From the IMG/VR virus record IMGVR_UViG_3300025674_000144, positions 1-36,910 of that record: a stretch of DNA of 36,910 nucleotides, one strand, 5' to 3'. Below the pieces are notes generated by a model. It was not told the DNA's origin and did no database searches. It saw only the letters and a program-made list of their open reading frames with translations. This DNA is from a virus. A program made the position numbers and the translations under genes. Shown in pieces: positions 2,823 to 34,300 of this stretch; the first letter of the stretch is position 1, and each line of letters starts with the position of its first letter.

Positions 2823-4193
2823 ATGGCTACTGCTGAACAATATAGACAAGCCTCTACTCAAATGGATAGGTTGGCTGAACTCAAAGACGAAGAAGAAGAG
2901 GCTATGGAAGAAGTTCAACAAGAATTAGATATTGAACTCAAAGGACTTTTTTCTTATGGAGAAGTTCTTTCTGAACTTGATGAAATTGCTAAAGTTTCTA
3001 ACACTTACAAAATAAATGGTAGTCAAGCAAGGGATATGTTGAATTCATATCCAAAGGAATATTTAGTTCAAGACCAAACAGTTCCAGAAATAATCAAAAC
3101 TATGAGGAATAATAGAAGGAATTTGAAAGGAGAGTATCGAGATAAAATGTCTAAGGCTATTGATACTCTCATTGATGCATACTCCGACCATCTAAACAAG
3201 TGCATTGATTCTATTCATTGGCTAACTCCTTACAAACAAACCTTGTTGAAAATGAGATTTAATGAAAAAGACTTAAGCAAACTTTACAAAATGAAAGACA
3301 TTGAAACAAGAAGAGAAGTCGTAGATGCATTATGTAAGTATTGGGAAGCAGAACTTGAACAACAGGATATGGTATATAGTCAAGAATATGCTCAACTCTC
3401 CAAAACAATGAGTTCAGCAAAGAAACAATTTAGAGATGCGATTGCCAAAGTTAGTGACCAATCAATTACTAAGTCTAAAAAAGAAAGGCAGGAAGAATTT
3501 ATTGTCAAAATGGTTTGTGAAAATCAAGGTATTGGGGCAAGACAAATACATGAAAGAATGCCAACGAATATGTATAAGATTTCAAGCCCTCAAATGATTT
3601 CTAAAATGATAAAGAAGTTAGATATTGTTTCAGTAGATGGGGCATATTACAAGATGCCATCAGAACTAAAAAAGAATATTTGGGCTTATACGGCTGCATT
3701 TATTGATTCAGATGGATATATTACATTAGACCGTAATATGAATCCAAGAGTCGGATTAGTGGCAACAGGAGAAAGAGGAAAGGCATTCATGAATGAAATG
3801 CATAAATCAATTGGTTTTGGTCGTTTGCACCTAAATCAAAAATCTCCTCAAGATACTCGACCAGTAAATCGCTTGAATTTTTATTCTCAAGACGATGTTA
3901 TGAATCTGCTAACAAAATGCCTTCCTCATTTTAGAATGAAGAAAGGAAATGCTGAACTTTTGATTGAATTAATTCGTATGAAAAAATCCTACAAAAAGGC
4001 TGATTGGTATAAACAAAGGTGTGATGAAATTTTTAAGTTAATGAAATGGGAAAATCATAAAGACCATGTTGGTTTTGATTTTACTAAAGAAGGTATATAT
4101 TTAGACGATATTCAAAAATATAAAGATAATTGCAAAATATCCTTAATGGATGAAATGGAACAAATTGGTGGAACTATTCTAAAGGAGGAGTAG
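2823..4193 (+). CDS. Helical/winged-helix protein fused to a LAGLIDADG homing-endonuclease domain
   Basis: A 456-residue protein. Residues 1-225 are highly charged and helical, with coiled-coil stretches near 15-40 and 185-215. Residues about 226-285 look like a winged helix (EFIVKMVCENQGIGARQIHE onward). From about 287 there is a LAGLIDADG-type domain: AAFIDSDGYITL (291-302) keeps the final Asp-Gly of the motif, including the catalytic acid. About 150 residues follow with the usual basic strands (NPRVGLVATGERGKAFMNEM). Only one motif is seen, so an active enzyme would be a homodimer. There are no intein splicing residues. It sits between terminase and an HMG-CoA lyase, splitting the usual terminase-portal pair. 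Whether the N-terminal part is a captured virion protein or only a DNA-recognition module is unknown. Confidence 0.8.
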   Translation: MATAEQYRQASTQMDRLAELKDEEEEAMEEVQQELDIELKGLFSYGEVLSELDEIAKVSNTYKINGSQARDMLNSYPKEYLVQDQTVPEIIKTMRNNRRNLKGEYRDKMSKAIDTLIDAYSDHLNKCIDSIHWLTPYKQTLLKMRFNEKDLSKLYKMKDIETRREVVDALCKYWEAELEQQDMVYSQEYAQLSKTMSSAKKQFRDAIAKVSDQSITKSKKERQEEFIVKMVCENQGIGARQIHERMPTNMYKISSPQMISKMIKKLDIVSVDGAYYKMPSELKKNIWAYTAAFIDSDGYITLDRNMNPRVGLVATGERGKAFMNEMHKSIGFGRLHLNQKSPQDTRPVNRLNFYSQDDVMNLLTKCLPHFRMKKGNAELLIELIRMKKSYKKADWYKQRCDEIFKLMKWENHKDHVGFDFTKEGIYLDDIQKYKDNCKISLMDEMEQIGGTILKEE

Positions 4194-4195
4194 AG

Positions 4196-5074
4196 ATGGA
4201 TATAGAAATCTATGAAGTTGGTGCAAGAGATGGCATACAAAATAGTAGTTTTCCAATAACCACTAAACAAAAAATCCAAATGATAGAAATGCTATATGAA
4301 GCAGGATTAAAGAATATGGAAATCACTTCATTCGTTAATCCAAAGTATGTTCCTAAAATGGCTGATGCTAAAGAAGTATTTGAAGCAACAAAGGATTTAG
4401 ATTCTTTTGGAGTATTAATACCCAATCAAAGAGGAATGGATAGAGCAAGAGAAGTAGGAGCAGAAAAAATAAATGTTTTCTTTTCTCCTTCTAATAGTTT
4501 TAATTATAGAAACTTAGGAACTGATTTAGAAACCGCCTACTCTAACATTGAAAATATGCTAATAGATACTGATAGAAAAGATGTAAGGGCATATATTTCA
4601 TGTGCTTTTGGTTGCCCATTTGAAAGAATGCCTAAAGAACATCAACTAATAGATGCTTTGGAAAAAGCAAGTGCTATTGCTGAAACTGTTGTTTTGTGTG
4701 ATACTATTGGTGCATCTTATCCAACTAAAATGCTGACAACATTAGAACTAACAAAAAAAATTGATTCTAAAATAGCCCTCCATCTTCATGAAAATAGAGT
4801 TGGGGGTAATGATATTTTTGCCAATGTAAAATCTGCTTTAGATTGGGGGATAACTTCTTTTGATAGTAGTATTAATGGGCTTGGCGGTTGCCCTTTCATA
4901 CCAAATAGCGGGAGTAATTTATCTACTAATCAACTAATTCATTGGGCTGATAACAATAACTATGAGACAGGAATAGAGTTGAATGACTTAAGAGAAGTCA
5001 CTTCATATATGCATATGTTAGAGAAGGGCTTGCCCGAAGGATTCATAACAGACGCATCTCCTGTTGCTATTTAA
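4196..5074 (+). CDS. Hydroxymethylglutaryl-CoA lyase homologue (DRE-TIM metallolyase)
   Basis: A 292-residue protein, close to the roughly 300 residues usual for HMG-CoA lyase, which cleaves HMG-CoA to acetyl-CoA and acetoacetate. Visible hallmarks are EVGARDGIQN (7-16) with R11 and D12, E42 in MEITSFV, the paired metal-binding H196 and H198 in HLHEN, the signature loop GLGGCPF with C232, and N241. Spacings R11-E42 and C232-N241 equal those of human R41-E72 and C266-N275. One oddity is that HxHE replaces the usual HxHD. A strong ribosome site (AAAGGAGGAG) precedes ATG 4196, and the gene ends in the portal's ribosome site. The fold and family are secure. The exact substrate is inferred; another acyl-CoA aldolase-type lyase is possible. 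It is not a virion gene by family. Confidence 0.9.
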   Translation: MDIEIYEVGARDGIQNSSFPITTKQKIQMIEMLYEAGLKNMEITSFVNPKYVPKMADAKEVFEATKDLDSFGVLIPNQRGMDRAREVGAEKINVFFSPSNSFNYRNLGTDLETAYSNIENMLIDTDRKDVRAYISCAFGCPFERMPKEHQLIDALEKASAIAETVVLCDTIGASYPTKMLTTLELTKKIDSKIALHLHENRVGGNDIFANVKSALDWGITSFDSSINGLGGCPFIPNSGSNLSTNQLIHWADNNNYETGIELNDLREVTSYMHMLEKGLPEGFITDASPVAI

Positions 5075-12151: not shown

Positions 12152-13300
12152 ATGACAGTTCTTCTCAAAAGGGAAACACAAGACTTTCAAATATTGAAAA
12201 GCGATGAATTAATGATAGGGGGATATGCAAGTATAGAAATCGTAGATAAGCAAAACGATTTGATTACCCTAAAAGCATTAAATGAAGCAGTAAAAAAATA
12301 TATGGAGAATCCAAAATTTAGAAATGTAATGACAAATCATTCAAATGTTCAAGTTGGAGAAGTAGTAGAATCATATCGAGATAAAAGTGGGAGGTTATGG
12401 AAAACAGAAGTAGATGATGTTGGCTTCTTTGTTGTAATTAAACTCCGTGACGATATAGAAAAAGCAAAAGAAATAAATCGAGGAATAAGAAAAGGTTCGC
12501 TTAGGAGTTTTAGTATTGGAGGACAAGCAATTCAGAAAGTGAAAAAGAATCACCCAGAATTAGGACAATACAATGAAATTAGCAAATTAGAACTACATGA
12601 GGTAACAATCTGCGAAAAAGGAATAAACCCCGAAGCGAAATTTGACATTTTAAAACAAGAAAAAAAGGTGAAAAATATGACAAAACTAGAAAAAGCATTG
12701 GAGGAATTGGATTCATTAATGAATGAAGTCAATGCTCTAAGAAAAGAAGAAGAAGAAGAAGAGATGATGGATATGCCAGCAGAAGAGGAAGAGAAAGGTA
12801 TGGGCGAATACATGGATGAAGAAGCCAAAGCCGTAGTATCAACCCTTGATGGTGCAGGTGTAGAAATCGGAGAACCCGCAGACCGTGTTGTAGTAGATAA
12901 CGGAAAGCCAAGAGCAACAGATATGCCAGTTGTTAAGGCATTTGATAGTAATGAGTTTTCAACTCTTGACCTATCAAATGAAAACATCGAGAAGGCTTAC
13001 GAGGCTTTCCGACAAGAACAACTTGAAAAGTTGGCTTACGACAATCTACAAAAGCAATTTGAAAGCAGATTTGCAGAAGAAGTCTCTACAAGAGAAGACT
13101 TGTTGGCAAAGGCTGAATATGATGCACAAACAGAAATTGCTTCCCTAAAGGAAGAATTCACACAACTACGAAAGTCTCTAACTGCTGAGAAAGAAACAAT
13201 TCTAAAGGCTCAAGAAGAGGCTCAAATCAAACTCCCTTCATTGGAGGAAATTTCAGAAATGGACTGGAATGACATTCATAAGATGGCAGGAGGAATTTAA
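12152..13300 (+). CDS. Prohead serine protease fused to scaffold (XkdF/S78-like)
   Basis: A 382-residue capsid-maturation protease joined to a scaffold. ATG 12152 is chosen, nine bases after AGGAGGG; TTG 12143 is directly abutting that site. Residues about 10-165 fit XkdF-type prohead proteases: GYASIEIVDKQNDLI, then H63 in MTNHSNVQVG as likely catalytic His, then S121 in SLRSFSIGG as likely nucleophile, and the strand LELHEVTICEKGINP. Residues 176-382 are scaffold-like: acidic and coiled-coil, ending in EMDWNDIHKMAGGI. The capsid gene starts one base after the stop. The protease should cleave scaffold and capsid parts during maturation. The C-terminal peptide is the likely capsid-binding element, by analogy with other scaffolds. 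Confidence 0.88.
   Translation: MTVLLKRETQDFQILKSDELMIGGYASIEIVDKQNDLITLKALNEAVKKYMENPKFRNVMTNHSNVQVGEVVESYRDKSGRLWKTEVDDVGFFVVIKLRDDIEKAKEINRGIRKGSLRSFSIGGQAIQKVKKNHPELGQYNEISKLELHEVTICEKGINPEAKFDILKQEKKVKNMTKLEKALEELDSLMNEVNALRKEEEEEEMMDMPAEEEEKGMGEYMDEEAKAVVSTLDGAGVEIGEPADRVVVDNGKPRATDMPVVKAFDSNEFSTLDLSNENIEKAYEAFRQEQLEKLAYDNLQKQFESRFAEEVSTREDLLAKAEYDAQTEIASLKEEFTQLRKSLTAEKETILKAQEEAQIKLPSLEEISEMDWNDIHKMAGGI
12677..13300 (+). CDS. Possible independently translated scaffold protein (internal start)
   Basis: An in-frame ATG at 12677 is preceded by AAAAAAGGTGAAAAAT, a ribosome site of the GGTG type used elsewhere in this window. It falls exactly between the protease domain and the coiled-coil region. 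The product would be 207 residues: MTKLEKALEELDSL, an acidic run, coiled coil (about 110-190) and the terminal EMDWNDIHKMAGGI. Codon use becomes richer in C-ending and AAG codons from here on, as in the capsid gene. Phage lambda makes its scaffold Nu3 from such a nested start in the protease gene C. The nested product here is inferred, not shown. Confidence 0.5.
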   Translation: MTKLEKALEELDSLMNEVNALRKEEEEEEMMDMPAEEEEKGMGEYMDEEAKAVVSTLDGAGVEIGEPADRVVVDNGKPRATDMPVVKAFDSNEFSTLDLSNENIEKAYEAFRQEQLEKLAYDNLQKQFESRFAEEVSTREDLLAKAEYDAQTEIASLKEEFTQLRKSLTAEKETILKAQEEAQIKLPSLEEISEMDWNDIHKMAGGI

Positions 13301-13301
13301 A

Positions 13302-14636
13302 ATGGCAGGATATATTAACACAATTGCAGATTTAGAAGCACAAACATACGGATTTAGTCTCGGTGGAAGCAGTAATATGCTTTTGAAAACCGCAGGGGCA
13401 GTAACAGGCATTCATGGAGGACATGATGCAGCAACTCAAACTTCCCCAACAACAGGTATTGCAGGTAATCTTTACAATGTTCTATACGGACAAAAAGTTT
13501 GGTCAATGCTAAACAGGGAAGTAAATGCACTTTCTGTTATGGCAAAGCGACCATATACTTCAAGTGGTTGGAGAGTTCTATCAAAGCGACCTGCTGGTGG
13601 CACTGGTAATTCTCATGCTTTTACCCAAACTGGAACTGATTTGGCAGGAACAGATGCTCCAAGATTAGACAACATTGGTGGTGTTCCTGAAAATGCATCT
13701 CTATCAACAAGTGGAGATGGTTTGATTGCTATTGCACCCGAATATTCTACACTCTTTATGAGTCCAAAAACAGTCGCTCATCAATTCGATTTCAGCGAAT
13801 TGGCTATGGAAATGGCTCAAATTGATGACGGAATTGGCGACATTAGGGCTCAAATGCGTGAAGATATGGGTAAGCACCACGCAGAAGCACAAAATCTAAT
13901 GCTTGTTTCTCCTCTTGAGGCATATTTGCAAGCAGATAAGTCAAATGCAGCCGCAGATATTGAAAGAAACTATACCTCTCTTTACAAGGTTATTTCTTCA
14001 AATGCTGAATTAGACCAAATGGACACAGATAACTTCCCTGTTTCCTCAATTACCGCAGATATTAGCGAAGCATACCACATTTACGGAACAAACCGTGATA
14101 ATGCTTCTTTCCTTGATGCAACTATTGATTATGGTGACGGATATGCAAGTGGCGATTCTCGACCATTTACACTAACAATTATGAACAGTCTTTTGAGGCA
14201 ACTTCGTGAAAACGGTGGTTCTCCAAAGGTTATTCTAACAGGATATGACACACTACAAACTCTATCTGACCTTCTACAATCCCAAGAGCGATTTATGGAT
14301 AGAAAAGAAGTTGTTCCAACTGTTAACGGTGTTCGTGGAGTTAAGGGTGCAGAAGTTGGATTCCGTGTAGCAACATACTACGACATTCCACTAATTCCAG
14401 TTGTTTCAATGCAAAGCACATCTGCTGACAGTGGAACAATTAGCGATATGTTGTTTGTAGATACTGACCATATGTGGCTTGCAGTTATGAAACCAACTCA
14501 ATACTTTGAAGATGGTATTAGCAACGGAAACCCATTCGGTGTCGGACAACTTGGAAACCGAGCATTGTATCGAACAATTGCAGAAGTTGGTTGTTCATAC
14601 TTTAAGGGTCAAGGCAAAATTACTAACTTGAAGTGA
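13302..14636 (+). CDS. Major capsid protein (HK97 fold)
   Basis: A 444-residue major head protein. ATG 13302 follows GGAGGAATTT and lies one base after the scaffold stop, the classic protease-scaffold-capsid order. The N-terminal 60 residues are Gly/Ala/Thr-rich. Residues about 60-110 fit an extended N-arm and E-loop region (SGWRVLSKRPAGG). A long helix carries AMEMAQIDDGIGDIRAQMRE (about 167-190), which fits the HK97 spine helix. The segment GGSPKVILTGYDTLQTLSDL is typical of the A-domain. The C-terminus (FKGQGKITNLK) is short. Identification rests on gene order, length and composition rather than a diagnostic motif. C-ending codons, CGA/CGT Arg and AAG Lys are more common here than in neighbours, as expected for high expression. 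Confidence 0.88.
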   Translation: MAGYINTIADLEAQTYGFSLGGSSNMLLKTAGAVTGIHGGHDAATQTSPTTGIAGNLYNVLYGQKVWSMLNREVNALSVMAKRPYTSSGWRVLSKRPAGGTGNSHAFTQTGTDLAGTDAPRLDNIGGVPENASLSTSGDGLIAIAPEYSTLFMSPKTVAHQFDFSELAMEMAQIDDGIGDIRAQMREDMGKHHAEAQNLMLVSPLEAYLQADKSNAAADIERNYTSLYKVISSNAELDQMDTDNFPVSSITADISEAYHIYGTNRDNASFLDATIDYGDGYASGDSRPFTLTIMNSLLRQLRENGGSPKVILTGYDTLQTLSDLLQSQERFMDRKEVVPTVNGVRGVKGAEVGFRVATYYDIPLIPVVSMQSTSADSGTISDMLFVDTDHMWLAVMKPTQYFEDGISNGNPFGVGQLGNRALYRTIAEVGCSYFKGQGKITNLK

Positions 14637-15709: not shown

Positions 15710-16096
15710 TTGGCAGCATTAAATCAAGATACAAGATTAGTAATGACTATTCTTTTTGTCGGAGCATTAAGCGGAGCAAATGTATTTGCTTACGCTCAAT
15801 TTGGAACAGGATTTCCTTATGGGCCATTAGCCCATTCATTTTTGTTTGGATTAGGAACAATAGGGTCTATTATGGTCATGAAAGCCCTATTTGATTTGGC
15901 CTTGAATGATAAAATAGAAATGTGGCTTCTTGATAGAAAAATACAAGCATATTGGGAAAGAAAATCAAGAGATGAGCAACAACGCCAAAAGATGCGAGAA
16001 AGTGCAAAACAATTTGGTGTTCCTGCTTTCTATGCACCGAGAGTTCAAGATGAAGAGAACACCGTTGGGAGTGAGTTTTTAGCCACATTACAATGA
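15710..16096 (+). CDS. Two-pass membrane protein
   Basis: A 128-residue protein with a TTG start behind AAGGTGATT. It has two predicted transmembrane helices, about residues 9-31 (LVMTILFVGALSGANVFAYA) and 41-64 (HSFLFGLGTIGSIMVMKAL). A long, charged, helical C-terminal tail of about 60 residues follows (DRKIQAYWERKSRDEQQRQK). By charge the tail would be cytoplasmic. It starts a run of membrane-linked genes that leads to the GTPase. A holin is one possibility, but holins are usually shorter and not in this position. A membrane anchor for the following complex is equally plausible. Confidence 0.75.
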   Translation: MAALNQDTRLVMTILFVGALSGANVFAYAQFGTGFPYGPLAHSFLFGLGTIGSIMVMKALFDLALNDKIEMWLLDRKIQAYWERKSRDEQQRQKMRESAKQFGVPAFYAPRVQDEENTVGSEFLATLQ

Positions 16097-16106
16097 AGGT
16101 GGTTAA

Positions 16107-16325
16107 ATGGGCTTGACTGATTTAATGGGATTTTCTGATAACGACTTTGTGTATAATCAACAAAGAGCCCATTCTGCTGATGTTTTCTTTTTGAAAATGA
16201 GAGCATGGTTTTGGGGTTCTTGTGCAACTCTTTCTGCCTTGCTTATAGGAAATATTTTGGGAGTTTTTGATATAAATATAATGGGATGGATTATTGATTC
16301 TATTAAAGGATTATTCAAACATTAG
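16107..16325 (+). CDS. Small single-pass membrane protein
   Basis: A 72-residue protein from ATG 16107, behind GAAGGTGG, which overlaps the upstream stop. The N-terminal 30 residues are polar (NDFVYNQQRAHSADVFF). Residues about 33-54 form a transmembrane helix (WFWGSCATLSALLIGNILGV). The C-terminus IMGWIIDSIKGLFKH is an amphipathic, membrane-active-looking helix. It lies between the two-pass membrane protein and the GTPase with 10- to 13-base spacings, so the three are probably made together. Confidence 0.7.
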   Translation: MGLTDLMGFSDNDFVYNQQRAHSADVFFLKMRAWFWGSCATLSALLIGNILGVFDINIMGWIIDSIKGLFKH

Positions 16326-16338
16326 GTGGGAGATATGT

Positions 16339-17001
16339 ATGTCATTAATGACGGGCTTCGCAATACTAATAACCGAAGCAGTTGTTGGGTTTTATAAAAA
16401 AGTTCATGCTATTAATTTTGGAATATATGGAGCAACAATGGTTGGAAAGACAACTATGAGTCACCAATTAAGAACAAGAGGAGAAGTTCCACAAATAAAT
16501 GATAGAACAGTTGGTAGAGGTAGAGCCACAAGAAAAAATATTAAATTAGATGGGGATTCTCATACAATTAGGAGTGCTGATTTAGGAGGAGAAGCAATCT
16601 ATTGGAAAGAATGGGAAAAAGACATGAAAACCCGAAAACCAAAATATATTATTTTTATGATAGACCATAGACACTTAGATAATACTTCAAATTTAGACCA
16701 CCAAGTAGCATGGAAATATTTAGTAGATACAGTGACTTCTAATGTTTGGTCGGATGGTAAAAAGAAAAAAGATATAGACTATCCATTAGCAATAGGTATT
16801 TGGGCAAATAAATATGATATTTGGGGAGAGAAATACAAAAATGACAAACCAATAGAGAAACATGAAATATTTGAGCCCTTTAGTTATGGAATGAGAAAAT
16901 TAAATGATAAAGGAATACCTTGTTTCAAGTATATAGTTTCGGCAAAATCGGATTCAGAAATGGTGTATAAAGGAATACTTACAATGATAAAGGACTACTG
17001 A
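16339..17001 (+). CDS. Membrane-anchored small GTPase, Arf/Ras-like
   Basis: A 220-residue protein with all five G motifs in order. They are G1 P-loop GATMVGKT (31-38), G2 T57 in DRTVGR, G3 ADLGGE (80-85; D81, G84), G4 NKYD (157-160) and G5 SAK (201-203). The strand YIIFMID (103-109) fits the core. The layout of PTVG-like, then DLGGE, then an aromatic/acidic helix is closest to Arf/SR-beta-type GTPases. A hydrophobic N-terminal segment (FAILITEAVVGF, 7-18) probably anchors it to the membrane. Start ATG 16339 follows AGGTGGGAG. Residues 137-147 form a basic loop (DGKKKKDID). It should bind and hydrolyse GTP as a switch at the membrane. Partners are unknown; the flanking membrane and acidic proteins are candidates. 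Small GTPases are not a usual component of tailed-virus virion operons. Confidence 0.88.
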   Translation: MSLMTGFAILITEAVVGFYKKVHAINFGIYGATMVGKTTMSHQLRTRGEVPQINDRTVGRGRATRKNIKLDGDSHTIRSADLGGEAIYWKEWEKDMKTRKPKYIIFMIDHRHLDNTSNLDHQVAWKYLVDTVTSNVWSDGKKKKDIDYPLAIGIWANKYDIWGEKYKNDKPIEKHEIFEPFSYGMRKLNDKGIPCFKYIVSAKSDSEMVYKGILTMIKDY

Positions 17002-17006
17002 TTACT

Positions 17007-17351
17007 ATGTGGAAAAGAATATTAAAAAAAGATATTGATGATATTTTAGATAGAATGCAAAATGAACCATTTAATGAAGAACTTTGGATTCATAACGAAT
17101 ATCCATTAGCCTCAATGACAATAGGTAATTTTGAAGAAACGAAGTATGAACATCTTAGTCCAGAAATACCAGATGAAGAAATAGAAAGAGCATTTAATGA
17201 AATAGTTGAAGAATATTATGCTAAACTTACTTTAGACCAAATAAAAGATGAAGATTTTGATTTTGAGGAACACTTGTCTAACATAATTGATGAATATAAA
17301 GAAAGACCTAAATTTAATAATAAATTTCGAGACTTATATAAAGAGGAATGA
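17007..17351 (+). CDS. Acidic helical protein next to GTPase
   Basis: A 114-residue, strongly acidic protein from ATG 17007, five bases after the GTPase stop. The start MWKRILKKDIDDIL is basic and amphipathic. The rest is Glu/Asp-rich helix (EIPDEEIERAFNEIVEEYY; DEDFDFEEHLSNIIDEYK). There is no enzyme motif. No good ribosome site precedes it, so translation is probably coupled to the GTPase. This makes it a candidate effector, exchange factor or activating partner of the GTPase, by position only. Confidence 0.7.
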   Translation: MWKRILKKDIDDILDRMQNEPFNEELWIHNEYPLASMTIGNFEETKYEHLSPEIPDEEIERAFNEIVEEYYAKLTLDQIKDEDFDFEEHLSNIIDEYKERPKFNNKFRDLYKEE

Positions 17352-17354
17352 AAA

Positions 17355-18017
17355 ATGTATCAACAACAAATTATAGGACAAACTGCCCCACAACAATTTA
17401 ACCCGCTTCTGAATCCAATTCAACAAGCAAGGGCAACAGGAATTGTAGCAGAATATAAACCAATGGCGATTAAGCCAAAAAAACAAAAACAGGAACTAAT
17501 TAAAATCCTATTACCCGAACCCAAAAAATTTCTTTTTATCAAATTTGGAAAAAAATTCAACATGAAAGAAAGATGTGTTGTATGTGGATTTCATCACATT
17601 TGGGAAGCAGGGGATTATCTAAGACCACCAATACCATTAGAAAAAGTAGTAAAGGGTCGGCCTCTTTTTGGAACATATTGTCCTAAACATGCTTCTATTT
17701 TCAATCAATTAGAAGTGTTAGACCAACAGATGTTGGCAGAAAAACATGGTTTGGAGTATAAGGGATTTAAACCGAGAGTTCCTAATATACTAAAAAGTGG
17801 CCCAATTACAAGTTTAAGTAAGACTGATATTGCTTCTCTTACATCAGTAGGTTATTTTATTAAGCCACCTACCATGCGTGATAATAGGTCAGCCACGAAT
17901 GAGGCGATTGAAATAGTCGGGGAAATCAATATATTAACAGATAGATTGAATTACCTAATGATACAAGAAGGAGTTAAGGTGACTAAGCCACTACCCGAAG
18001 AACAAAAAGAGGAATAA
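17355..18017 (+). CDS. Zinc-binding hypothetical protein
   Basis: A 220-residue protein from ATG 17355, three bases after the previous stop. The N-terminal 40 residues are Gln/Pro-rich and likely disordered. A putative zinc site is built from C74-x2-C77, H80/H81, C109 and H112 (CVVCGFHH and YCPKHA). The region KSGPITSLSKTDIASLTSVG lies near residue 145, and the C-terminus is helical (AIEIVGEINILTDRLNYLMI). I do not recognise the family. It ends the membrane/GTPase cluster and may be a cytoplasmic or virion-bound adapter. Confidence 0.7.
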   Translation: MYQQQIIGQTAPQQFNPLLNPIQQARATGIVAEYKPMAIKPKKQKQELIKILLPEPKKFLFIKFGKKFNMKERCVVCGFHHIWEAGDYLRPPIPLEKVVKGRPLFGTYCPKHASIFNQLEVLDQQMLAEKHGLEYKGFKPRVPNILKSGPITSLSKTDIASLTSVGYFIKPPTMRDNRSATNEAIEIVGEINILTDRLNYLMIQEGVKVTKPLPEEQKEE

Positions 18018-18019
18018 AT

Positions 18020-18664
18020 ATGGGCATATTAGGAACAAGTAATGGAACAGTATTGAACGCAGTTCAGCAACAAAATGATGCTAATTTTAAAACTGTAAAT
18101 AATCTATTATCTTTACAAGACAATCATGTTGAGGAATTTTTTCAATATCACGGACAGATGTTTTTTGAAGCGATAGAGCAACTAATGGAAGATGTAATAG
18201 AAAGAGTAGTTTCACAAATGCTTTCTAAGTTATCTTTCACTACTTCGGGCGGTGCTATTGAATTAAATTCAGAATGTATGAGAGAATACGAAAGAATTAC
18301 TCAAGAAAACATTGATTTAGATATTCAAAAGATTCTTGGGGCTGCGTTAAATGCAGAAGTTATTAATCAAAGAAAGATGGCTAAACAACAATATCTCGAA
18401 TCACAAGGATTTAATGGAGGGCAACCATCGGCAGGGATGGCTATTGCAGGATTAACTGGCAATACTCAACAATACAACCAAATGCATGGTGCTATGAATA
18501 ATGGTAGTGGCTACCCTATCCCACCAAACGGCACAGATGGATATGGTCGCCCATATTGGATTGACCCTCAAACTGGTCAAATGAGTTATGAACCTCCAAG
18601 TAGCGGATTAGGTTTGGGTTCAGCAATTCAAAAAGGTGCTGCTTGGGCTAAATGGTTAATGTGA
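18020..18664 (+). CDS. Hypothetical protein with helical core and Gly/Gln-rich tail
   Basis: A 214-residue protein from ATG 18020. Residues 10-75 are helical with heptad-like spacing (NNLLSLQDNHVEEFFQYHGQ; EAIEQLMEDVIERVVSQML). Residues 95-130 are another helix. The C-terminal 80 residues are Gly/Gln/Asn/Pro-rich with YGRPYWIDPQTGQMSYEPP and end in AAWAKWLM, a hydrophobic tip. Low-complexity tails of this kind occur in virion-associated proteins. No known domain is visible. There is only weak ribosome-site sequence before it (GAGGAAT), so it is probably coupled to the upstream gene. Confidence 0.65.
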   Translation: MGILGTSNGTVLNAVQQQNDANFKTVNNLLSLQDNHVEEFFQYHGQMFFEAIEQLMEDVIERVVSQMLSKLSFTTSGGAIELNSECMREYERITQENIDLDIQKILGAALNAEVINQRKMAKQQYLESQGFNGGQPSAGMAIAGLTGNTQQYNQMHGAMNNGSGYPIPPNGTDGYGRPYWIDPQTGQMSYEPPSSGLGLGSAIQKGAAWAKWLM

Positions 18665-18676
18665 GAGTGATTATAT

Positions 18677-20035
18677 TTGGTCGAAGAAGATATTTCTATT
18701 CAGTGGAACGGAATGAAATCTTTTTCTAATCCAAATACTACAAAATTAATAAAAAATGACTTTATAGAATATCTTTCTAAAGATATGGATGAAGCACAAC
18801 TTGAGTATGTATTGGATAAAGCACTTAAGAGTGCGGGTTCTGATAGACAAAAAATACAAGAAAAACTTTCAGAAGTTTTAGAAGAGGCTCTTAAAGACAA
18901 AGATTTATCTTTACAAGCATACAAAGAAGATGTCGAGGCTTGGTCTGAATACTTGAGGGGAGAAAATAAAGAAGAAAGAATTGAGAAAGCAAAAAATATA
19001 AGTTTATTTGATGCTTTTACGGATAGTAAAAAATACTTTCAATTGGTTGGTGCAACTTCTTTAGAACTTGGTAGGGATTTAGAAAATTTACCCGATTTTG
19101 ATTTAGATACTTTTTTAGAACAAGAGAATTTAGACCCAGTGTATTTAGAAGAAATGGGAACAATAACCTTTGGTATAAATATTGGAAAGTTCACGAAGTC
19201 TGCACTTGAACAATTAAAAGTAGTGGAAGAAATTGGTTTAACTAAAGAAATATTATTTGCAAATACTACATTTGTAAAAGAATTGAATATTAAGTATTTT
19301 ATTAAGACCGAAACTGAGGAAAAAAAAGACATTGTTGGTTATATTCCCGAAATTCCAGATGGGTTAAATAAATTTTCAGATAAATTTAGAGAATATTATG
19401 TAGATTACATTAGAAGAGAATTAGGTATAGCAAGTGGAGGGTTTGTTCCTTATGGTCAAAAATATACAAGAACTTCAAGACCTTCTGAATTTGCTTCGAG
19501 AAAAGCAGAAATAAAAACAGAATTTTCTCCTTTAAGAGAATTAGTTATTAATTTAAATATGGGTAAAGAATTCAATATAGATACTAATTTTATTTTTAAT
19601 GAAGTCTTTAATAATTTAGAAGATTTAAAATCAGAAGAAATCAATATTTATAGTGAAGACATTACTAAGGAAGTAATAGTAAATATTCAAAGATTAGATT
19701 ACTTAAATAATTTATTAGATAGCCTTGAAAATCTAAAAGAATTGAAAGCATATGAATTAAATTTCAATGTTGGTATTCCTTCTCCTAATAAAAAAGAATG
19801 GAAAACTGCTTTGAAAGAAAAAATAGATACCTCTAAAACAGATGCTTTGTTAATGAAACCGTTTAAGAATATTAAATTAGCAATAGAAACAAGAGTCGCC
19901 ATATTTGGTAATTATGATTTCAGTTATTATTCCAAAGCAGGTGAAATAAAGAAAGATAAGATGAATGACCATCTTAACGAAATAAGAACTAAAATTATTG
20001 GATTAGGTTATGAAGGAGTTAAAGGGGGTATTTGA
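18677..20035 (+). CDS. Hypothetical helical protein upstream of head-tail connector
   Basis: A 452-residue protein with a TTG start behind GAGAGTGATT. It is Lys/Glu/Leu-rich, with a helical N-terminal third (EYLSKDMDEAQLEYVLDKAL). The mid region (about 120-250) is mixed alpha/beta with GTITFGINIGKFTKSAL, and the end contains IFGNYDFSYYSKAGEI. There are no Cys residues, membrane helices or nucleotide-binding motifs. Its last base overlaps the next ATG (TGATG). Its place between the GTPase cluster and the connector makes a head-completion or internal virion role possible; I cannot name a family. Confidence 0.75.
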   Translation: MVEEDISIQWNGMKSFSNPNTTKLIKNDFIEYLSKDMDEAQLEYVLDKALKSAGSDRQKIQEKLSEVLEEALKDKDLSLQAYKEDVEAWSEYLRGENKEERIEKAKNISLFDAFTDSKKYFQLVGATSLELGRDLENLPDFDLDTFLEQENLDPVYLEEMGTITFGINIGKFTKSALEQLKVVEEIGLTKEILFANTTFVKELNIKYFIKTETEEKKDIVGYIPEIPDGLNKFSDKFREYYVDYIRRELGIASGGFVPYGQKYTRTSRPSEFASRKAEIKTEFSPLRELVINLNMGKEFNIDTNFIFNEVFNNLEDLKSEEINIYSEDITKEVIVNIQRLDYLNNLLDSLENLKELKAYELNFNVGIPSPNKKEWKTALKEKIDTSKTDALLMKPFKNIKLAIETRVAIFGNYDFSYYSKAGEIKKDKMNDHLNEIRTKIIGLGYEGVKGGI

Positions 20036-21348
20036 TGTCAATTACTTCCTCCCCAAGTGATTATACTTTAGCAGGAACTCCTGACTATTCAGCAGGTATT
20101 GGCTATTATACGGATTATATACAAGTTGCTGATTTATTACAAGTTCCTCGTTTTGATGCTTCTGCAACTTATCCAACAAGAGCCCAAGTTGGAAACATAA
20201 TAAAAAGAGTAGAAGGAATAGTTGATGATAAACTTAAAAGAAGTTATAGACCAATAATAACTAAAAAAGAAGTTCATAACTTTGAATACACAAATAGGCC
20301 TGGAATGACGCTTTATGGCGGTTATGTTGGTTTTATTCAATTAAAGCAAATGAAAGTTCAAAAGATTGTTTCTCTACAAGTTTGGTCTGGTAGTGGATAT
20401 AAAGAGATTGCTTCTGCTCAAGCACAAATAGAATTATTAGATAATTTTAGAGATATTTATTCTATTGTTTTACAATTGCCGAATAGTGGCGTTGAATTTG
20501 AAATGATTGCAGAAGACACATTAAACAATTTAGGGAATGATGAATTTTGTAATACCTTTGGAGTTAAAACAACTGTTAATGATATTGTTGCTTTAATTAA
20601 TGAAGAATTTCCATCAACTTCTCAATATACAGGTGCTAATGCACCAAAAAGACTAACAAGTTCTCAATTGTCGCTTTCAGACTTTTTCTTTGCTCAAAAA
20701 GAGGAAGGAAATGGGGCAAAAATCCTCGTTTCATCCCTACTTTCGGGGGATGATGGGGCAGATTGTGTCATTAAAGCCACCACTGAACAGGCGATAACCC
20801 ATACCAATGGAAGCACCAATCTTGTTGTTGCTGATTCATCTAAATTAGTTGTAGGTATGGAAATCGAAAATGGCAATAATCGCATACCAAGCGGAACAAC
20901 AATTACTGCTATTGTAGATTCAACTAATGTTACTATGTCTGCATCAGCCACAAATACTGGTTCAAGCACAGGAACATTTACAACAACTACTGGAATACCA
21001 AATGCTTGTAGCATTACTCAATTTACAGATAAAGAAGATATGAAAAGAACAGGAGATTATTGGCTACTCAATGAAGAGGGCAGAATTTTCTTTTTGCAAG
21101 ATTATCCATACCATACTCGAAACTCAATCTTTGTTTCTTATATTGCAGGTAATTCAAGAGTTCCCGCAGCAGTTCACGAAGCAGCCACAAAATTAGTTGC
21201 TTCGGAATTAATTAGACATGATGACCAAAGCGTATTAATTACCGAAACAGGTGCTAATATTTCCACAAAAGAGAAATATGATATTCTTAGAAAAGAGGCT
21301 ATGGATATACTTGGTGGTAAATCAGACATTGTTTATTTTATTGATTGA
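20035..21348 (+). CDS. Head-tail connector (adaptor) with inserted beta domain
   Basis: A 437-residue protein. ATG 20035 overlaps the upstream stop and follows AAGGGGGT. The two ends look like one connector-type helical fold: YIQVADLLQVP and GNIIKRVEGIVDDKLKRSYR (about 30-75), and HEAATKLVASELIRHDD with KEKYDILRKEAMDILGG (about 380-430). Between them is a long beta-rich stretch. It includes a module (about 245-320) with NLVVADSSKLVVGMEI and TTITAIVDSTNVTMS, a Thr/Ser-rich repeat type common on virion surfaces. Gp6/gp15-type adaptors are usually about 100-150 residues, so this one is greatly enlarged. The assignment rests on end segments and gene order. Confidence 0.65.
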   Translation: MSITSSPSDYTLAGTPDYSAGIGYYTDYIQVADLLQVPRFDASATYPTRAQVGNIIKRVEGIVDDKLKRSYRPIITKKEVHNFEYTNRPGMTLYGGYVGFIQLKQMKVQKIVSLQVWSGSGYKEIASAQAQIELLDNFRDIYSIVLQLPNSGVEFEMIAEDTLNNLGNDEFCNTFGVKTTVNDIVALINEEFPSTSQYTGANAPKRLTSSQLSLSDFFFAQKEEGNGAKILVSSLLSGDDGADCVIKATTEQAITHTNGSTNLVVADSSKLVVGMEIENGNNRIPSGTTITAIVDSTNVTMSASATNTGSSTGTFTTTTGIPNACSITQFTDKEDMKRTGDYWLLNEEGRIFFLQDYPYHTRNSIFVSYIAGNSRVPAAVHEAATKLVASELIRHDDQSVLITETGANISTKEKYDILRKEAMDILGGKSDIVYFID

Positions 21349-27147: not shown

Positions 27148-28347
27148 ATGTATCATATTTTAGCAGGGAAACAAAGGGCATTAAAATTCCCTATTATGTG
27201 TAATGCTTCTGTTAAAATAGATTATTCTGATAATATACCCGATACAAATAATAATTCAAATACTGCTGATGATGTAAGATATGGTTTATGGGGTCATGAA
27301 GGCTCTTTTATTTTTGAAGCAATTATTACCCCATATGATATTAATGGATATGGAGCAGGGTGGGATGAAAAACCAAGTGTAGTTAGTGGAAGAACTTTTA
27401 GCGACACTCCTCCAAGTCCTCGTTTAATCAATGCATCAGATAAAGTAATGCCAGCAATTGACTCAAGATTATATTCAGCGAGCGATAGGCAAAGTGAAGC
27501 CTATTTAGCAAGCACTACTGCGGGTAGGCTAAATCACGAAATGATTATCTTTTACAATGATAATTTTCATATTTCTTTAGTAAATACTACAAAACATAAT
27601 CAAAACCAACCTGCTGAATTTGGAATAAAAGTAGGTATTAAAACTCCTAATATGGTAAGTAAAACAGAAATAACTACCGATGCGGTAATTTTACCTTCAT
27701 ATAGTAGAACATATACTTATAGTGCTACTGATGGAATAGACCAAACAGAAGGATTTGATGAGTTTGGTAGGTTTAAGTATTGGAAAGTGAATACTGTTGG
27801 TAGTGGAACAAATACAGGAGATTATGTTTCTTTAGGTTCTAATGCAGTAGATTTTATTGAGGGAGTTAACCAAAAAGTGTTTATTCGAGAAGATAATAAA
27901 TTTGTATTGCTCGGAGAAGTAAATACTAAAACTGCAAGTCAAATTAGAACAGTATCTCCTCATGGTAAAACCTTGACCACTGGGGAAGGGCTCTTTTTAA
28001 AAGCCTATCAAGAACCTACATATATTAATAAAATTCACCAAGTTTCTTGCATTTATGATGACTTACAAAAGAAAGTATTCATTTACCTAAATGGCATTTT
28101 GATTAAAGAAGAAACAATTGTTGCTACTGATAGTTTTGCATTTGACAGAACCGATTGCTTTTTAGGAGCAAATGGAACAAATGCTACGGGAGTTGGTTCA
28201 GCCACTACGAATAAACAATTTATGGGAGAAATGCACGAAATGTATATCTCAAATAGAATATCAAGTAAAATTGTTAGGCACTCAAATTTAATGCCTAACT
28301 ATAATGATGTTCTTCTTTACCTAAGATTTGAGGAGATAGACCTATGA
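27148..28347 (+). CDS. Tail adhesin with LamG/concanavalin-A-like lectin domain
   Basis: A 399-residue virion protein from ATG 27148, behind TGAGGTAA. The C-terminal region (about 288-395) has the jelly-roll signature of LamG-type lectins: INKIHQVSCIYDDLQKKVFI with YLNGILIKEE, then DRTDCFLGANG, then FMGEMHEMYISNRI and VLLYLRFEEIDL. The N-terminal part also looks lectin-like (YGLWGHEGSFIFEAIITPYD), so the protein may hold a split or doubled jelly roll. It overlaps the giant hub gene by four bases (ATGA), pointing to equal production. A role in binding host surface glycans at the tail tip is likely but inferred. Confidence 0.75.
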   Translation: MYHILAGKQRALKFPIMCNASVKIDYSDNIPDTNNNSNTADDVRYGLWGHEGSFIFEAIITPYDINGYGAGWDEKPSVVSGRTFSDTPPSPRLINASDKVMPAIDSRLYSASDRQSEAYLASTTAGRLNHEMIIFYNDNFHISLVNTTKHNQNQPAEFGIKVGIKTPNMVSKTEITTDAVILPSYSRTYTYSATDGIDQTEGFDEFGRFKYWKVNTVGSGTNTGDYVSLGSNAVDFIEGVNQKVFIREDNKFVLLGEVNTKTASQIRTVSPHGKTLTTGEGLFLKAYQEPTYINKIHQVSCIYDDLQKKVFIYLNGILIKEETIVATDSFAFDRTDCFLGANGTNATGVGSATTNKQFMGEMHEMYISNRISSKIVRHSNLMPNYNDVLLYLRFEEIDL

Positions 28348-31300
28348 CAGTTGCAGTATATACAAAGGGAGGGGCTTCTGCAAGCAACATAGATGTGCCT
28401 ACTAATTGTAAAATAACGACAAGTAGCACTTATTCTACGGATGGAACAAGGCTCTATACTGCTATTCATACCGATGCTTCTGAAACAACTCATTCGTATG
28501 AAGAGTTTTCGGGCAACAGTCCATATAGTAATTTGAATACAACTAAGGGATATAGGATAAAAACATATCAAACCGCTACACAGACAGGCTATCTATTCAA
28601 TCCGTCTGATTGGGATGATACGAATAAAAAATTCGATAATTACGATTACTTTGTTTTATTATATGCAGACGACCATTTACAACACCATTTTGCTAAAATT
28701 ACAGAAGTCATAAAAGAAGATGTATTGGGAGATGCTTTTGAATTTTCTCCGAAATTAGGAAATGAGATTCCTAAAGACACTAAATTTATGATTATTAAAG
28801 GGCCGCCACAGAACTCAAATGTTGTTGCTTTTTCTGCGGGAATTAAAAAGGACTTACAAAATGAACTTATGTGTGCTAATCCATTGTTTTATTTTTATGA
28901 TGAGTCTTTAGATAAAATAGGAGAATTAGACCATAATAAAAAATATTTTGTTAGGCAAACAGGGGTTTCTACGGGAACGACTATTGATATGACTTCTGCT
29001 GATGAATGCACTATTTTGACTACTCAAGAATACTTAGGACAAATAGTAGATTATAGTAGGTATTCTATGAAAGTGACACTAACCGATAATCTAAGAGATT
29101 TAGATACAACTAACGGTGGTTCAAATGAAGGAGAAAGCATAACAGGTTATGGCACTAATTCTAATTATGAAGACATATTTGTAAATGCGAGAAGAGATAG
29201 TGATGACCAATTTAATAATAATTACAATGGTGAATATAGATATTTGACTTATTCTTATTCTCCTAATTGCACTAACATTTTATCTAATGTAATTAAACAT
29301 ACTACTAATGAATCTTTTAATAATATTGCAGGTAGAAGCGAAACCACTATTATAGACACTTTCAGAATAACAAATGTTAAACTTAAAGAAAATGATTTCT
29401 ATGGTGTTAGACATAGAGTTCATATTGGAGAAACACAGGATTGGGCAACAATAGAATGTGATATTGATAGCCTTACTACTCCTAGTGGATATAGAGTAGT
29501 GACAATAGATATTGATGATATAGAATCTTATCTGGTTGCGGGTAATGAAATAAAAATAGGTAATGTAATTTGTATTGTTAGAAGTGTTTCTAATGGGGCT
29601 TCTACTTCTACTATTACATTAGAAAATTATTACCGAGCCACAACCGAAGGAGTATTTACTGCTGGAACTCCTACTCTTTCTACTGATGATATTATTTATA
29701 GACGAGCATTTAATCACCTAAATAATACTCTTTTAACTGATTTTAAAATAATGGAAGGTAGAGAAAAAGACCTATATGTTCGGTTCGATGCACATAATTT
29801 TGCTCTATTGGAAGCAAAGGTTTCTTCAACAAATAAAAATCAAAAGTTATTAACTTTAACTTATGAATTTGATTCTTATGATTCTAATGTTTTGGCCTAT
29901 TTAAATGGAGCATATTCTATTGAAATAAATAGATTTGAAGGAGAAATAGAAACAATTACCACCTACAAAGAACAAGGGCAAACTTATGTTGATATATCGG
30001 GAAGAGATAAATTCAATAAAATATTATCTCCTATTATTAATAAAGAGACTGTATTTAGTGAAGATATAATATATTCCAGTGAAAGCCCATATCCCGAATT
30101 ATTTCCATTTGAAACGGGTGGAGGAAGCCAAATTTCCTTATCTTTAGCCACTTTTGATAGTAATAATATACAGTTTAGTGATAGTGTGACAGTTGTTGCT
30201 ACTGATGCAGACCCCTCATCACAAGAATTAGATAATTTTACCCACTTATATGCTAAACTCAATCAACACATATGTTATGTTGGAAGAATATCGGAAAGCA
30301 CTGGTAGTTATTCAGCAGGTAGTGATGTTAGGTTAGAAAATAATTCTTTAGTAGAATTACTTTCGGGAGGTAGTGCATTATTATACTATTCGAGGCTAAA
30401 TAATAAAATTATTTTTAATAAGGCACTTTCTTCTAATGCTGCTATTGATTCGGCTTCTGATTTAAGAGGGGCTTCTGATAAAGGCGTTTTATTTACAGGA
30501 GGATATAGCATTTCATTAGGAGGATATGCAGAAGGTAGTTATTTACCAAACACTTCCACTGATACCACAAATGCTTTAGCAAGAGGATATTATATCAGCA
30601 AAGTCCAAAATATGAAAAATGATTCTTATTTCTTTGCTAATCTTGGAAATGATGCTACTCCCGAAGAATATGAAGATTTTAATGTTGTTAATTCTTTACT
30701 TGATTTTACTGTTGTGAGCGTGAAAGATAATGGGGCATTGAAGGAAATAGAAGTAGCCCCACATAATCCACTATTGCTAGCAAGGAAAGATATTAATTAT
30801 GCTAATGCTATTTCAGAAGAATTAGTTTCTACTGATGAATTAAGCGTGACTATTGGTAATCTATTAAGCAACCAAGACATAGGAGACCAGTATTTCTTGT
30901 TAGATAATAATAGTCTTTCAAATACAAACGCCAACCGTTATGCTCATGAAGGAAACGCAATTTATTCTAACGGGGTTTTTTTGGGAATAATAGATATTTC
31001 TTATCCGTTGAATGCTACTTCAACTGCAATACGGCTAAAATCTCCTGCTCCTATTTCTGTCCTAACAACAGATACTCTTACAATAATTGGCAAAACAACA
31101 GAAGGTATTTATGACGAATACAATAAAAAGAGCCACGAATTTTCCATAATCAATGGTGGAATTTTACATGGAGGAAAAATGATTTCTTTATTGAGTCCTT
31201 TTATGTCAGATTCAAATGCCTCAGTTTTAGATTATATGACTTATCAAACTACTTCTGCAAATAGAGTAAGTTATAAAGAAAGATTCGGCTCACCTATTTA

Positions 31301-34300
31301 TAGAATATTTAATGTAGAAAAGGGCAACATACTTAGAAAAAATCACAGTTATTTGAATAATGACATTGTATTAGATTTTTATAATAAGGACTCTAATATC
31401 GAATACTACGGTAGTGCATATAAAAACGAAAATGGTTTTTTATATGATGGAGGAACATATTACGATAACTTACTCGGTGTAAATAGAAAAATAACTTCAA
31501 GACCCAATTTAGAAATCGAAGGTAGGGGTATAACTTCTGTTATGGGTTCTAAATTTTATGATGCAAATATTTTACCTTCAGGGCAAAGCGAAATACCGAT
31601 TGTTCATGATAAACAAGCCACTAACATTACCAACACAAACCTAATTGCAAGTTTATCTACAATAGATTCCCCAACTACTTATTATAGACCTGAATTTAAT
31701 ATATCCAAAGTAAGAGCCCTACTTAATATTAGAGATTCTACTGCGGATAGAATGTTTATTTATAGCATTAGTGATTTATTACCATATAGTAATAAAAGAG
31801 AAACTGCCTTGCTTTCTGCGGGATATGATAGAACTACTACAAATTATGGTATTATTTCTTTAAATGAAGCAGACATAGACTCTTCACAAGAAACAAAGGA
31901 CAATTTAGGAATTAATACAAATAGAGTCAATTATAAAGATAAAGACTATGCAGTATCTTCTATACTTGATAATGATAAAGAAATTAATTCTTTAAAGATG
32001 TTTAGTATAATGAGATTAACAGAAGTGGTTTTAGATTTTGGATTCAACTCAATTAATATAGAAGAGGAACAACCCAAAAAGAAAGTTCTCCCTGTTTTAC
32101 CAATGCCTTATACTAAATTAGAAAGCAATATTGATGGAACTAATTCTTTAACCTTAGTAGAAGGAGGAAGTAATGACTATGGAACAGGCACTACTATTGA
32201 TGTGACTACTGACTATACGGCAGGTTCTAATCCCTTAATTAGAGGAGATATTTTAACGACTACCAATGGGTTAGTTATCGGAGAAGTTAGCGGAGTAAGT
32301 TCTTCTGTTATTACATTAAATAATGTAAATAGAGTAGAAAAGGGAGATTTATATTATGGGGATATTTATGCTCTAAAGGCTAAAGATGTTATTAATAGCC
32401 CTTTTATTAAAGGAACTGGTGGAGATGATTCTATTGGAAAGGTTGGAAAAGGAATTAGTTTAAGTAAAACTATTACAAGTTCCCATCTTTCAACTACTTA
32501 TTCGAGAACTACATTAAAAACCACATTTAATTGGTCAAGTTGGACTGGTGTTGGTGGAATGAATAATGGATATATCCAATTAGTAGTTCCCGATTCTAAT
32601 ACTGTCACTTCGGGAACAGGACTAACTTACAGATTTGACTTTAATCCCGATTCTGATAATACAGGAAGTTTTCCATCTATTGCGGGGGCTACTGATGTTA
32701 GAATAGATATTGATGGTTTTGATTGGCTTGACAATGATATGAATGAACAATTTTTAGAGAAATTTAAAAAAGCCTTAGAAAGCACTGATATTTTTGATTA
32801 TGTTTATATTAGTAGTCAAGGCCCCACTTCTTTAGGTTTAACTACTATCTTTGAAGACCATTCAACACCTATCGCAGAATGTTCTGCTCTTGTCACATCG
32901 GGAACAAATAATTTTGACAATAAAACCAAATGCTCAGAAGTAGTTGGAGTAAATACTTTTGAAGACGGATATGGGGGAAGCGATAGTGGAAGCGATAGTG
33001 TTTTTGAGAATGATGCAGATACCGATACTAAAAGCACAAGTTTTGGAAGTAGGCTTGGTTCTACAATTACAAGCAATAGGCTTTCGACAAGCCTATTTCC
33101 TTATTTTACAACATGGGGATATAACTCTAACACAGGAAGTTTTACAGTAAGTTCATTTGATACCACATATGATAGGCACACTCCTTCTCATTTATTTAAG
33201 CAACTTTTCTTATGTAATGAAATCGGAGATGCTAAATTGGGTAGTTTAACCCATAGTAATGAATTATTTATGCAAGGTTTCTTGCCAATTGTCTTGGGAA
33301 CTTTTAAAGCAGAAGAAACCACTAACCAAGAATTAGATTATGGAACTGTCGGTCTGCCAATTGAAGGAGTTTCTCGAATAGAATATACTACTAATGATGA
33401 ACTTATGGGCTTTGCTATTGCCCAAAAAGGAGGCATAGGAACTATGCTATCTCACACAGTAGGAGATTTGAATACTACTGCTGAATCAACAGGAGTTCAA
33501 TTTGGTTTTAAGCCAAGATTAGATATGGAAGATGCTCAAACTAATGCCTATCATGTGACTAATTATCCCGAAGGCTACCAAACAAGTAGGGCGGTTGGTG
33601 GAGAAACTGTATATCACTATACTATTGATTCAGCAGAAGGAACAAATGGAGCGACAAACAACGGAAACAAATACAAATGGTTAGAATTATTAGATTTAAC
33701 TGGATGCTATTTAGCGTCATATGAAGGCTATTATACAGATGAAGATAGCGTTCCTGTATTAAGAAATAAAAAACATAGTAGAAGTATGAATAATATTATG
33801 CCATACAAAATAATTTATGTTATTTCTCATGAATTAGATACTTCAAGCACAGAAATTAGACACATTATAACAACGGATGAAAAATTAGATACCGATACTT
33901 ATGTTATTTTACAACCAAATCATGTCTGTTTCCACGAAAATTCAAATAAAAACATTTCTTTGAATATGCTAAGTTCTTCTTATACAATAAATCCCATAAC
34001 AAATAAGCCATTTGAAGATATTAAATCTTATTCTGTCAAAAATAAAATTTCAACAACTATTCAAGGAGATGGAGAATCGGCTTTGTCTATGTATGTTATT
34101 GTAGATAATAACTCCTTACATTATGATATTTCTACAACTGTCAGTGGAGCATATAATACTTCAAATCGCTATCAAAAACACTTAGTTGTAAGAGATGTTC
34201 AAGCGTATTCAGGAACTACAACAAAATTAGATGATATAATGAATGATTTACCAACCAGTATGGTATTTTCAGATGGAGATGATTTTATTAAGAGTTCTAT

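Follow-up and report, generated by a model that had tools for sequence, protein, structure and literature searches.

The window analysed here comprises positions 1 to 36,910 of IMG/VR record IMGVR_UViG_3300025674_000144, a single 36.9-kb record, one strand of which carries genes for a large terminase, a portal, a prohead protease, an SU10-type capsid protein, an ATP-dependent DNA ligase and an HMGL-like lyase. The SU10-like major capsid protein (13269..14636, + strand) shares 27% identity with that of HCTV-1 (Druskaviridae). The gene list of the Magrovirales, which have been attributed to Poseidoniales archaea, consists of a Druskaviridae-related capsid protein, terminase, portal, protease, ligase and HMG-CoA lyase (PMC10768690), and each of these is present in the window. 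Judged from gene content, the window covers part of the genome of a magrovirus-like tailed virus, and its host, taken over from the magrovirus literature, would be a member of the Poseidoniales, marine archaea. The HMGL-like lyase gene (4196-5074) is located amid the packaging genes and also appears in the Aoguangviridae gene list, while the large terminase adjoins a gene (2823-4193) for a 456-aa protein with an HNH-endonuclease-like C-terminal part (phrog_5046), perhaps a packaging protein with a homing nuclease domain. At the tail end, a 2351-aa ORF (28344-35399), with no relative within the fetched flanks, likely encodes a tail or receptor-binding protein.

The ORF of main interest (16339..17001, + strand) lies in the capsid-to-tail gene block on the same strand as its neighbours, in agreement with the virion operon originally described, and encodes a 220-aa small GTPase of the Ras/Arf superfamily, as indicated by motifs, relatives, family models and predicted fold. 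An upstream in-frame TTG at 16294 offers an alternative start; the ATG at 16339 was adopted because relatives begin at the same place (MS[LVI]). From the N-terminus, the protein comprises a hydrophobic/amphipathic helix (residues 1-22; 16339..16404), the G1 P-loop GATMVGKT (residues 31-38; 16429..16452), the G2 switch-I Thr T57 within RTVG (16507..16509), G3 DLGGE (residues 81-85; 16579..16593), G4 NKYD (residues 157-160; 16807..16818) and G5 SAK (residues 201-203; 16939..16947), all on the + strand. The five G motifs of the Ras superfamily are therefore all located, in order and in one domain, within 220 residues, as the original prediction of a complete GTPase had it.

Relatives were collected in six IMG/VR scans reaching down to about 60% identity, which gave 196 distinct sequences among the matches listed; the GTPase-anchored scans returned the best 80 loci each, and the resulting counts are not a prevalence. 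Among these matches, GxxxxGKT, DxGG[E/Q], NK[YFH]D and SAK were all intact in 196/196 distinct relatives and RT[VI]G was kept in 188. Since four of the five motifs are conserved across all 196 distinct relatives and the G2 motif in 188, they are not a product of chance, and the positions proposed for G4 (NKYD) and G5 (SAK) proved correct. At the catalytic position after G3, the window protein has Glu, as do 165 of the 196 distinct relatives; the other 31 have Gln. All Gln forms fall within one clade of the tree, and the bootstrap trees imply between one and four changes. A precedent exists in Rup group 1, which lacks the G3 Gln and is an accepted exception to DxxGQ (PMC4316618). The replacement of the catalytic Gln by Glu suggests that hydrolysis may be slow and regulated. 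In a 74-row alignment, D81 was invariant, as were S2, G6, F7 and E13 in the N-terminal helix region. In one outlier (L258), whose capsid match is weak, the reading frames are shortened in a way that looks like assembly frameshifts.

The assignment was extended with family models on 14 family members. TIGR00231 small_GTP matched 14 out of 14 (best 4.9e-7), the Pfam models MMR_HSR1, Roc, SRPRB and Arf matched relatives at about 1e-4 to 4e-5, and the MMR_HSR1, Roc, SRPRB and Ras models responded in most of the 14. The Pfam Arf model was above its cut-off in one relative (23.7 vs 22.3 bits); this was discarded as proof of Arf membership, since the same model also scores above threshold in 13 of the 14 control genomes. 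Used as a single query, the window protein found no match in Pfam, PHROGs, the PDB or phage genomes, and the family was detectable only via its relatives, which may be why this type of gene has so far gone unnamed. Searches of 50,697 phage genomes with the GTPase, a divergent relative, HRAS and ARF1 gave zero matches, and the Ras-like viral matches in BFVD were nearly all from giant viruses of eukaryotes, both in line with the earlier statement that such switches are unusual for tailed viruses. No match was obtained in the plasmid records searched, and a cellular donor was sought in one scan, covering close relatives only, which returned no close cellular relative. A 12.2-kb contig carrying the viral GTPase (NZMJ01000024.1, L160) has been assigned to a MAG of the bacterial genus Maricaulis and is most likely a misbinned virus fragment, while contig IMGVR_UViG_3300021958_000021 (184.7 kb) contains two GTPase loci ~90 kb apart (L056/L416 and L146) and is possibly two joined genomes. 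In the open literature searched, no paper mentioning both magroviruses and a GTPase was found, although an earlier annotation is possible; the legend of the ICTV Aoguangviridae genome map names no GTPase (PMC10768690).

An AlphaFold2 model generated from 74 diverse sequences (pLDDT 80.5, pTM 0.79) displayed an N-terminal helix (residues 2-22) followed by the canonical G-domain/Ras-fold order of strands and helices; an earlier AlphaFold model, for which 23 close relatives were used, reached a pLDDT of just 56.6, and its fold matches were set aside. Foldseek matched the model to Rab, Arl and Ras chains with E values of about 1e-8 to 2e-7. In VIA-align 2, the top 21 rows were Arf/Arl chains (Z 16.7-17.4), the best being ARL1 (Z 17.4, rmsd 2.7 Å, 163 aligned residues, 18% identity), and next came a Lokiarchaeal RagA-like chain (Z 16.7), the Asgard ArfR GerdArfR1 (Z 16.5) and Rab (Z about 16, i.e. 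about 1 to 1.5 below Arf/Arl). Both Arf/Arl and Rab chains matched over about 160 residues with rmsd values of 2.5-2.9 Å. The predicted fold is that of a small GTPase (Z 17.4 to about 16 at pLDDT 80.5), and not one outside the TRAFAC GTPases, which would have contradicted the original prediction.

Profile comparison with hhalign aligned the family to HRAS with a probability of 88.8% (E 2.5e-6) and with G1 through G4 in register, and to ARF1 with a probability of 16.7%, gaps being needed in the interswitch. In ARF1, 19 residues separate the G2 Thr from the G3 Asp and G5 reads CAT. The viral protein has 24 residues from T57 to D81 and SAK at G5 in all 196 distinct relatives, and shows neither the short interswitch nor the CAT of Arf. 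As to Arf versus Ras, the fold ranks Arf/Arl first by a small margin over Rab, while the profile, the interswitch length and SAK look Ras/Rab-like. Taking model and motifs together, the protein is a Ras-superfamily GTPase that has no assigned family and carries an Arf-like element at its N-terminus.

The N-terminal element had been called an anchor. A hydrophobic helix is indeed predicted at residues 2-22, but its Kyte-Doolittle value of 1.59 in the window is only borderline for a transmembrane span, and the corresponding helix in one relative (L194) has a value of 1.21 and is more amphipathic. The membrane predictions given here derive from a simple hydropathy calculation, not from a trained topology predictor, and "membrane-associated helix" is the safer wording for what is predicted. 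By hydropathy and model, this helix is predicted to contact the membrane; it could also pack on the G domain.

The GTPase gene (16339-17001) is the third of five genes forming a conserved cassette, all on the + strand. The product of cassette gene 1 (15710..16096) is 128 aa long and has two hydrophobic spans together with a helical tail that is charged, whereas that of cassette gene 2 (16107..16325), 72 aa long, has a single hydrophobic span and ends in an amphipathic helix; on hydropathy, these two small upstream neighbours are predicted to be membrane proteins. Cassette gene 4 (17355..18017) encodes a 220-aa protein with an invariant CxxC-x31-CxxH, which is conserved and linked to the cassette and may form a zinc site. 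R26 and R90 of this protein are also invariant, it belongs to no Pfam family, and it is a possible zinc-type (GAP-like) regulator of the GTPase. The 214-aa product of cassette gene 5 (18020..18664) has a weak match to the virion structural PHROG phrog_14074 (E 7.6e-4). The products of 15710, 17355 and 18020 had no match in the 50,697 phage genomes. An accessory 114-aa ORF (17007..17351, + strand) between the GTPase and the CxxC gene is a local insertion outside the conserved cassette, occurring in just 5 of the first 158 loci. Neighbouring genes are 2-13 bases apart, which is consistent with co-transcription of the cassette. The gene after the cassette (20032..21348, + strand) is kept with or without it and matches phrog_17057 (unknown function); it would be connector-like from position alone.

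Presence of the five genes was compared across 214 distinct loci that extend from the capsid gene as far as 20032, of which 171 carried the complete cassette, 43 none of it and 0 a part of it. When only capsid-anchored loci were counted, which removes the bias of a GTPase search, the all-or-none linkage still held (46 with the cassette, 49 without, 0 partial). This goes further than the original prediction, as the GTPase gene is a fixed part of the cassette throughout a virus lineage. The capsid tree displayed one change of cassette state, with Druskaviridae-like outgroups lacking the cassette; a single gain (or loss) explains this distribution, and a second change is possible because the branch support is 82/90. 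Seven large records (87-96 kb) of cassette-lacking viruses contained no GTPase of this type anywhere, and four records of cassette-carrying viruses contained exactly one each.

In most relatives, the gene just before 20032 is a very fast-evolving ORF (18677-20035 in the window; equivalents of about 400-1300 aa), the cassette-positive and cassette-negative versions of which have no detectable similarity. It was considered as a replacement gene in cassette-negative viruses and rejected, as a large fast-evolving ORF precedes 20032 in both groups, making it a position-equivalent neighbour. In Druskaviridae (L161, HCTV-1), the place of the cassette after the capsid gene is taken by a single gene (12488-12877), whose small product has a hydrophobic span at its N-terminus.

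Selection was compared over eight genes of the block on a common relative set. Mean dN/dS was 0.097 for the GTPase, against 0.14-0.23 for the seven others, some neighbours being represented by few unsaturated pairs (n=9 for 17355 and n=16 for 15710). The capsid protein had a mean dN/dS of 0.17, and the nonsynonymous divergence of the GTPase was about half that of the capsid protein. The strongest purifying selection among the eight genes was therefore on the GTPase, the function of which must be closely tied to virus fitness.

The reading we favour, with a probability of roughly 0.5, is that the five genes form a late-type membrane cassette for assembly or exit in which the GTPase is the switch, in an Arf/ArvA-like manner; late expression would follow from gene position. 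GTP loading would free the N-terminal helix for binding to the cytoplasmic membrane of the host, and there the GTPase may assemble with the two membrane proteins (15710 and 16107). The CxxC/CxxH protein (17355) and the 18020 protein would regulate the GTPase or link it to virions, and the complex would reshape or open the membrane at assembly or exit. Arf and euryarchaeal ArvA are thought to act by GTP-dependent membrane binding of the kind proposed here. The absence of the cassette from sister viruses implies that the step is carried out in another way there or is host-specific.

Alternatively, the five proteins might be part of the particle itself, in the head interior, at a vertex or in the neck, with the GTPase acting in assembly or at entry. 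Such a location would suit genes that are flanked by those of the capsid region and the tail region, all on one strand, as well as the structural PHROG match of gene 18020 and the match of one relative of gene 17355 to a baseplate domain (E 0.005), but both family matches are weak. Furthermore, two predicted membrane proteins and a GTPase with a hydrophobic N-terminus would be odd in a non-enveloped tailed virion, and the virions of sister viruses with related capsid genes do without all five proteins, so that we consider a virion component unlikely, though deserving of attention.

A bolder version of the membrane-cassette reading can also be formulated, in which an Arf/ArvA-type GTPase and its membrane partners, having evolved in a prokaryotic virus and been inherited as one cassette, would act on the host membrane by budding or opening it, so that virions could leave the cell or spread in vesicles. 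Egress, which was also among the roles first suggested, alongside envelope remodelling, is something we infer for the GTPase, and in this specific form the proposal is speculative and rather unlikely.

Host takeover or superinfection exclusion, also raised in the original prediction in the form of blocking superinfection, would have the GTPase compete with host small GTPases at the membrane, in vesicle formation, polarity or surface structures. The membrane-type helix and neighbours are compatible with this, and Euryarchaeota possess a membrane-acting small GTPase that would be open to imitation (PMC10927574). However, genes of this kind are usually variable and scattered, and the viral GTPase evolves more slowly than the other seven genes in the comparison and is never parted from its four partners, which leaves a takeover function distinctly doubtful. 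A cargo gene (moron) of cellular origin, serving a house-keeping GTPase function apart from virion formation, would account for sister viruses that lack the cassette, which was gained or lost as a unit. Nevertheless, the gene is kept in every sampled member of the cassette clade, is tightly packed in the structural block, has the lowest dN/dS and showed no close cellular relative in the one scan made for close relatives, and a moron is very improbable. It is scarcely credible that the protein is another P-loop NTPase with NKYD and SAK placed by chance, as the negative single-sequence family searches might allow, given that G4 and G5 are intact in 196/196 relatives, that the predicted fold matches small GTPases and that the HRAS profile alignment is in register from G1 through G4.

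Membrane small-GTPase switches are seen as characteristic of trafficking in eukaryotes, and the archaeal ArfR and ArvA are their cellular forerunners. A GTPase fixed in the virion block of viruses attributed to highly abundant ocean archaea would extend a regulated membrane step to prokaryotic viruses. The findings point to a step at the membrane that appears so far undescribed for the life cycle of these viruses, although an earlier mention is possible. The five-gene set makes the assembly or exit of these never-cultured tailed viruses testable, and the sister viruses, which have a related capsid gene and lack the cassette, provide a natural comparison.

In comparison with known systems, the giant-virus Rab/Ras GTPases in BFVD resemble the protein as virus-encoded small GTPases of similar fold but belong to viruses with eukaryotic hosts, and to our knowledge they have no tie to a fixed structural-gene cassette. 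MglA and Rup are, like the viral protein, single-domain prokaryotic Ras-superfamily GTPases, and the Rup groups have Ras-like G motifs, whereas the G3 of MglA is TVPGQ or GTPGQ, without Asp (PMC4316618); the viral protein keeps the G3 Asp and does not have the MglA form of G3, and a search for MglB/roadblock among the neighbour proteins gave no match. With Ras/Rab, the viral GTPase shares SAK at G5 and an RKxxxxDG interswitch that aligns gap-free with HRAS up to the G3 Asp, but its membrane element is N-terminal, it lacks a C-terminal tail past the last helix, its G3 has GG rather than AG and its beta4-beta5 region is longer. Arf/Arl chains, with Asgard ArfR and Rab close behind, head its fold matches, and with Arf/Arl and ArfR it shares an N-terminal helix directly before beta1 and DxGG[Q/E] at G3, but it differs in the 24-residue interswitch (19 in ARF1) and in SAK (CAT in ARF1).

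The closest functional precedent is the archaeal vesiculating GTPase ArvA/OapA of Euryarchaeota. In Haloferax volcanii, vesicle formation is driven by ArvA, a small GTPase whose N-terminus is an amphipathic helix, and ArvA has two operon partners, ArvB, a proposed GEF, and the Zn-ribbon protein ArvC, a proposed GAP (Mills et al. 2024; PMC10927574). OapB (PF09846) and OapC (PF09845) were unmatched in four cassette-positive records of 84-97 kb, even at E 10, and no OapB/OapC-type Pfam match was seen among the neighbour proteins of the GTPase. Membership in the ArvABC system was rejected on these grounds, and the resemblance to ArvA is considered an analogy because homologues of OapB and OapC were not found. 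The viral gene also differs in its place in a virion block and in having two membrane-protein neighbours upstream. By the published description of ArvA, the two have in common a single-domain GTPase in which an N-terminal helix precedes the G domain, matches to the Pfam families PF01926 and PF00025, a euryarchaeal setting and operon partners that include a downstream Cys-rich zinc-type protein.
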